Source: Cytophagaceae bacterium (GTDB taxonomy: Bacteria; Bacteroidota; Bacteroidia; Cytophagales; Flexibacteraceae). From it: DNA of 34,852 nt. A program made the position numbers and the translations under genes. Positions 18,537 to 21,115 of this stretch are shown one piece after another (position 1 is the stretch's first letter; each line of letters starts with the position of its first letter). Under the pieces are notes generated by a model that searched no databases, was not told where the DNA came from, and saw only the letters and a list, made by a program, of their open reading frames with translations. The stretch lies in contig CANETC010000013.1 in NCBI GenBank assembly GCA_947441055.1, positions 1 to 34,852 on the forward strand, read 5' to 3'.

Positions 18537-19253
18537 TTATGATTGGTGGTTTGTTACAAGTGTTCCGATTTCTTCTCCTCGCACAAGACGCAGAAGATTA
18601 TCCGCTTTGTTCATGTCAAATACAATGATGGGCAAGCCGTTTTCTTTGCAGAGTGTAAAGGCTGTCATGTCCATTACATTAAGTCCCATTTCATAAACCT
18701 GATCGAATGATACGCTGTTAAACCTCGTTGCATTCGGATTTTTTTCTGGATCGGCAGAGTAAATCCCATCCACCCGGGTTCCTTTTAAAACCACATCTGC
18801 GTCGATTTCGATGGCACGCAAACTTGCGGCTGAATCTGTTGTAAAAAATGGTCTTCCGATTCCTGCACCTAAAATTACCAAGCGGCCTTTTTCCATGTGC
18901 CGGATTGCCCTTCTTCGAATGAAGGGTTCGCATACTTCATCAATTTTCAGCGCAGACATCAAGCGGGTATAAATACCTGCATTTTCACAGGCGCCCTGAA
19001 TTGCCATTGCATTAATCAAGGTTGCCATCATGCCCATATAGTCTCCGGTTGCCTTTTCTATGCCAGCACCCTTTGCATCCTCCCCCCTGAAAATATTGCC
19101 TCCTCCGATTACAACAGAAATCTGCACGCCCAGGTCGTACACCTTTTTGATTTCACTTGCATATAACTTGAGCATTTCAGGGTCTATGCCATGGCCTTTC
19201 TTGCCCAGCAAGGATTCACCACTCAGTTTCAACAAGATGCGTTTGTATTTCAT
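18537..19253 (-). CDS. pyrH: UMP kinase
   Basis: '[24 protein letters not shown]', '[10 protein letters not shown]', '[25 protein letters not shown]'. Start at 19253 preferred over 19280. pyrH-frr order is common. Confidence 0.96.
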
Positions 19254-19472: not shown

Positions 19473-20036
19473 ATGAAAAACTTAATTCTCCTTATCTTAC
19501 TTACCGGATTTCAATATTCCGGGAGCGCAAATTGCAATCAGCAAGCACAAAAAAATCCCTGGCGCAAATACCATCGTCCAAAACAACATTGCCTCAAGCC
19601 GGAACACAGTCGTAGGTTCCAAAAGTCAATGTTCGGAATTTCAAGGCTGCCTTTTGGCGCCTTTTGTCTGCCTCATGGTCGCCGGAATGTTTTTTTTCAT
19701 GACGGCTACTTCTATCGTAAGAGCTCCTCTTGCTATTCCATGATTCCAGCACCAGTTGGGATTTTTATTCCCAGACTTCCATTTAATGCATTAAAAATAT
19801 TTCACAGTGGTCTTGCCATTTGGTTCCTCGCTGGTAATTTCTACCGGGAATCCAACAAGGGATTTATGGTGATTGAAACACCTTTATGAATTCGGGTTCC
19901 AGAGCTTCCAGAGGCAGATTTGGAACCGATATTCCTAGAAGGAGAAAAATTCTTCCTCTTTAACAATGTCCTTTGGAAGAAAAGGGAAAGCCGGCATGCC
20001 TTGTATTTTGAGGCAATTGATTATTGGCAATCCTGA
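19473..20036 (+). pseudogene. Small secreted Tyr/Phe-rich repeat protein (DUF6515-like) interrupted by in-frame TGA at 19887-19889
   Basis: ATG at 19473 (MKNLILLILLTGFQYSGSA...) open to TGA at 19887, then 48 further codons in the same frame (IRVPELPEADLEPIFLEGEKFFLFNNVLWKKRESRHALYFEAIDYWQS) to TGA at 20034. The post-stop segment continues the internal repeat pattern. Confidence 0.65.
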
Positions 20037-20092: not shown

Positions 20093-21115
20093 ATGAAAAA
20101 AGTACTTGTTACAGGAATATCCGGCTTTTTAGGTTTGCATATTGCGGCTGAAGGACTTCGGCGGGGGTATGCAATTCGGGGTACGGTTCGGAGCGAAGTC
20201 CAAAAACAGGAGGTGCTCAAGTTGTTTTCCAGCTTGATGCCGGAGGGGCGAATTGAAATATGCCTGGCAAATTTGCTTCAAGCGGAAGGTTGGGATAAAG
20301 CAATAGAGGGCTGCGAAGGAATTATGCATGTGGCCTCTCCATTTATTCTTGAAATTCCGAAACATGAAGATGATCTGATTAAACCGGCTGTTTTGGGTGT
20401 GAAAAATGTAATGGAGGCTGCCTTACGGCAGGGGGTTCACCGGATTGTTCAAACTTCTTCTATAGTTGCCATAATGTATGGCCACGACAGAAATAAAACC
20501 CATTTCAATGAAGATGATTGGACAAAATTGGTGGGTCCTACCATTTCATCCTACACCAAAAGTAAAACACTTGCAGAACAGGAATTCTGGGCTATCGGGC
20601 ATCAAAATCCAAGTTTGCAATTGACTGCCATCAATCCCGGTTTTGTTTTGGGGCCTTTGCTGAATAAGGATCCGGGCACTTCTGTTCAGGTTTTATTGAA
20701 AATGATGAAAGGCGAATATCCGGGTGTTCCTCGTTTGGGGTTTGCAACTGTGGATGTGCGGGATGTTGCCGCATTACATTGGAATGCACTCGAGCAAAAC
20801 ATAAGCATTGGCAAGCGTTATCCAGCAGTTTCTTCAACGGTCTGGTTTGCCGAATTGGCGCAGATGATTCTGGATTTCAAGCCTGAATTTTCTTCCAAGG
20901 TAAAAGCGCGGCAACTACCAGATTGGTTTGTCCGGATTTTTGCACTATTTGATAAACCAACTCGCATGATTTTGCCTGAGCTGGGATTTTGCGCCCATAT
21001 TTCCGGAGAGCTTGCTGCTCATGACCTTGGGTTTAAACCCAGACCGGTTGTGGAATCTGTAAATGCTTCGGTAGATTCCATTATTGAAAGGGGCCTGATT
21101 AAAGTCCCAGGATGA
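20093..21115 (+). CDS. NAD(P)-dependent epimerase/dehydratase family reductase (dihydroflavonol-4-reductase-like extended SDR)
   Basis: 'MKKVLVTGISGFLGLHIAAEGLRRGYAIRGTVRS' Rossmann motif (TGxxGFLG), 'VQTSSIVAIMYG', 'YTKSKTLAE' (YxxxK). ATG at 20093 preferred over 20024. Confidence 0.87.
   Translation: MKKVLVTGISGFLGLHIAAEGLRRGYAIRGTVRSEVQKQEVLKLFSSLMPEGRIEICLANLLQAEGWDKAIEGCEGIMHVASPFILEIPKHEDDLIKPAVLGVKNVMEAALRQGVHRIVQTSSIVAIMYGHDRNKTHFNEDDWTKLVGPTISSYTKSKTLAEQEFWAIGHQNPSLQLTAINPGFVLGPLLNKDPGTSVQVLLKMMKGEYPGVPRLGFATVDVRDVAALHWNALEQNISIGKRYPAVSSTVWFAELAQMILDFKPEFSSKVKARQLPDWFVRIFALFDKPTRMILPELGFCAHISGELAAHDLGFKPRPVVESVNASVDSIIERGLIKVPG

Follow-up and report, generated by a model that had tools for sequence, protein, structure and literature searches.

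What does a single stop codon mean when it stands inside a gene whose reading frame otherwise remains open and continues to resemble its relatives? The window analysed here, a stretch of 34,852 nucleotides from a Cytophagaceae bacterium (contig CANETC010000013.1), raises this question on its forward strand. An earlier note on this DNA had described a frame from ATG 19473 that is split by a TGA, and this layout was confirmed. The first 138 codons (19473..19886) are followed by a premature in-frame TGA at codon 139 (19887..19889), then by 48 sense codons (19890..20033) and finally by the original TGA stop (20034..20036), which is shared with the sister genome G003. From 19473 to 20036 the frame contains this one interior stop, no second one and no frameshift. 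The 5' part encodes an N-terminal segment that, judged by eye, resembles a signal peptide, then a basic linker and repeat units 1 and 2; the 48 codons downstream of the stop encode the third repeat unit and the C-terminus. Extension of the open reading frame upstream to 19191 as coding sequence was ruled out, as the sister has three stops in that frame. The divergent upstream neighbour, on the reverse strand, is a gene that we take to be the UMP kinase gene pyrH (18537..19253). Downstream on the forward strand lies what is presumably an NAD-dependent epimerase/SDR-like gene (20093..21115), which is matched in G003 and absent, at E<=1e-60, from the three other genomes of the genus. The reading that we prefer, with a probability of roughly 0.6, is that a dispensable gene of the DUF6515 family has recently acquired a nonsense mutation here.

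The family assignment was examined with the conceptual product carrying an X at the position of the stop. Its match to PF20125 (DUF6515) was unbroken from residue 48 to residue 173 (E=2.4e-16, 60.5 bits, with a curated gathering cutoff of 24.9 bits), in agreement with the earlier suggestion of a DUF6515-like family. Residues 1-138 alone also scored above the gathering cutoff (49.6 bits, E=5.6e-13), and the last 48 residues alone gave no PF20125 match. The C-terminal repeat unit is thus not in the same uninterrupted frame here, being encoded 3' of the TGA. The gene product is probably a small, exported repeat protein of uncharacterised function. Sequence searches of the PDB returned no solved relative, and the open-access literature on DUF6515 amounted to one paper that mentions the family, its subject being plant bZIP genes. 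A structure prediction made without an alignment had a mean pLDDT of 44, too poor for use. No second DUF6515 copy was found in the source genome, the assembly of which is 89% complete.

Is the gene intact elsewhere? G003 (CAMDMI010000092.1) is a metagenome-assembled genome of the same genus, ~2.7 Mb in size at 95% completeness. It encodes a 187-aa ortholog with no interior stop. This ortholog resembles the window gene in its 75% identity over all 187 residues and in its final stop, but has GGA in place of TGA at codon 139; the codons flanking codon 139 are identical in the two genes. Since the same neighbours are found on both sides and in the same order, with the UMP kinase gene divergent upstream and the epimerase-like gene downstream, we regard the G003 gene as a true ortholog. 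The note had predicted a Gly at the stop by aligning the internal repeats, and this proved right: the sister has GGA, and the affected column holds Gly in 20 of 23 relatives (the G003 ortholog and 22 DUF6515 proteins from the same order) and Asp in the other three. The missing residue could therefore be correctly predicted from the internal repeats by a reader without tools. All 23 relatives extend past the site into the C-terminal unit in one open frame. Orthologs ending naturally at ETPL, just before the stop, had been raised as a finding that would speak against an interrupted gene; none of the 23 ends there. Two of the five genomes of the genus, the source included, carry the ortholog, and 24 of the 194 genomes sampled from the order carry the family, a patchy distribution that fits repeated loss or gain of the family. 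With the gene present in only two of five genomes of its genus, its loss is therefore tolerable. Together with the epimerase-like gene, the DUF6515 gene may form a lineage-specific insertion beside pyrH.

Selection on the two parts of the gene was compared by Nei-Gojobori counts between the window and the sister. The dN/dS ratio was 0.216 before the stop and 0.065 in the 48 codons after it (dS 1.05, dN 0.068), a difference between body and tail that is not significant (Fisher p=0.11). In the tail, 17 of the 24 differing bases fall at third codon positions, and 41 of the 48 residues match those of the G003 ortholog. Such agreement is not due to chance, and it bears out the claim that the codons beyond the stop continue the homology. 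Judged from this pairwise comparison, the tail is under purifying selection and is clearly not relaxed. Consequently, the stop is either recent or an error, or else it does not end the protein. A tail dN/dS of 0.065 argues against a long neutral period since the stop arose. Bounds on the neutral age of the stop, which are approximate, assumption-dependent and weak, lie between zero and roughly one third of the window's branch if calculated with the dS of this gene; the genome-median dS extends them to roughly two thirds. A wrong base, or readthrough of the stop, would leave the tail just as undecayed, and both possibilities are considered here.

In the first of these, the population carries GGA, and an erroneous or minority base entered the assembled consensus, an explanation that we consider possible, if rather unlikely. 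The source assembly is a fragmented draft of 249 contigs, 89% complete, in which a consensus error or the base of a minor strain would look identical to a real mutation, and the tail without decay also speaks for this explanation. The background of interior stops was assessed by comparing ~1.2 Mb of the source genome with ~1.1 Mb of G003, about 40% of each genome, which yielded ~355 pairs of orthologs with a total of ~123,000 aligned codons. In this comparison, 24 queries had a stop in the matched source-genome DNA. They were sorted by stop position and dN/dS, and overlapping open reading frames were examined for the main candidates; four candidates other than the DUF6515 gene were examined directly, and the remainder were judged by stop position and dN/dS. 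Among the ~355 pairs and ~123,000 codons, only the DUF6515 gene proved to be a real gene with a convincing interior stop. The other candidates were rejected as over-extended starts, C-terminal length differences or spurious open reading frames on the opposite strand. A handful of frameshift-like ortholog pairs were also listed (4 and 2); the pairs at the source-genome loci L112 10831-11552 and L085 5829-6345 appear to carry a frameshift in either the source genome or G003, with flanking identities of 88-90% and 90-94%, respectively. The result of the scan can be read in two ways. A solitary interior stop in ~40% of each genome is compatible with an isolated base error, and it indicates that the source genome is not generally decaying. 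The same scan, however, shows the assembly to contain few errors of this kind, and the difference at codon 139 is one substitution with no indel.

The second possibility is that the TGA is read through functionally, by a near-cognate tRNA, by selenocysteine insertion or by reassignment of the codon, to give forms of 138 and 187 aa. Bacteria are known to read through UGA at low levels, and purifying selection on the tail would be expected if the long form were made. Nevertheless, no conservation of the stop was seen: the position holds a sense codon in the G003 ortholog and in all 22 other homologs, and because no relative shares the stop, an intact ancestral gene accounts for the constraint on the tail. 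TGA is also a normal stop in this genome. It ends 307 of the 928 open reading frames in the examined part, about one third, and serves as the final stop of the DUF6515 gene itself. The ~1.2 Mb of the source genome examined yielded no tRNA with a UCA anticodon. A genetic-code change, such as reassignment of TGA to Gly or Trp, was rejected on these two grounds. Selenocysteine insertion was likewise rejected, since no match to tRNA-Sec in the whole source genome (89% complete) passed the Rfam cutoff. An A follows the stop, and this is not known as a favoured context for readthrough. Functional readthrough, listed by the earlier note among three options, is therefore left with no positive support, and we regard it as very improbable. 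The more specific proposal, that a TGA peculiar to this species, at a conserved Gly codon, allows useful levels of readthrough and gives a short and a long exported DUF6515 protein, seems to us more improbable still.

Could the gene work without its tail, or the tail without the rest of the gene? A selected, functional short version of 138 aa would retain the putative export signal along with repeat units 1 and 2, and the 5' part by itself still gives a good DUF6515 score. Against this, the C-terminal unit is retained in 23 of 23 homologs, and the counts against the sister show no weaker constraint on the tail than on the remaining codons; we give this explanation hardly any credence. As for the tail, the statement that it has no start codon is correct for ATG and GTG but not for TTG, which occurs in frame at 19920 and 20001. 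Reinitiation in the tail was rejected: the TTG at 19920 is not conserved, the sister having CTG there, and a fragment begun there would be without an export signal.

The recent nonsense allele, also among the three options of the note, is thus the best supported of them, given the intact GGA ortholog and the constrained tail. An intact ortholog in a close relative, a single lesion and in-frame homology that continues beyond it were all found. We propose that a recent nonsense substitution converted the conserved Gly codon to TGA in the source genome. Translation would then stop after 138 residues, with loss of the third repeat unit, and the allele would probably be newly arisen, either loss-of-function or encoding a partly functional truncated protein. 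We infer that the cells truly contain the stop, that termination at it is efficient and that the truncated product has no function. The case is an ordinary one: a gene loss caught early, or else an assembly error, in a lineage with a patchy distribution of DUF6515.

Comparison with known systems places the locus as follows. The window product has the repeated aromatic/Gly/Pro pattern of the PF20125 members, most of which have Gly at the affected column. The members examined in the order are intact, whereas the window gene is interrupted by the TGA. For bacteria, published examples exist of in-frame stops followed by constrained sequence (PMC7918605), which is a point in favour of readthrough. 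The cases of Belinky et al. (2021; PMC7918605) resemble the window in having a stop inside an otherwise conserved gene, with a downstream dN/dS below 1. These authors accepted apparently tolerated in-frame stops only if the same stop was present in at least two genomes, so as to exclude sequencing errors. The stop in the window, by contrast, is seen in one genome only and falls short of that standard, which speaks against readthrough.
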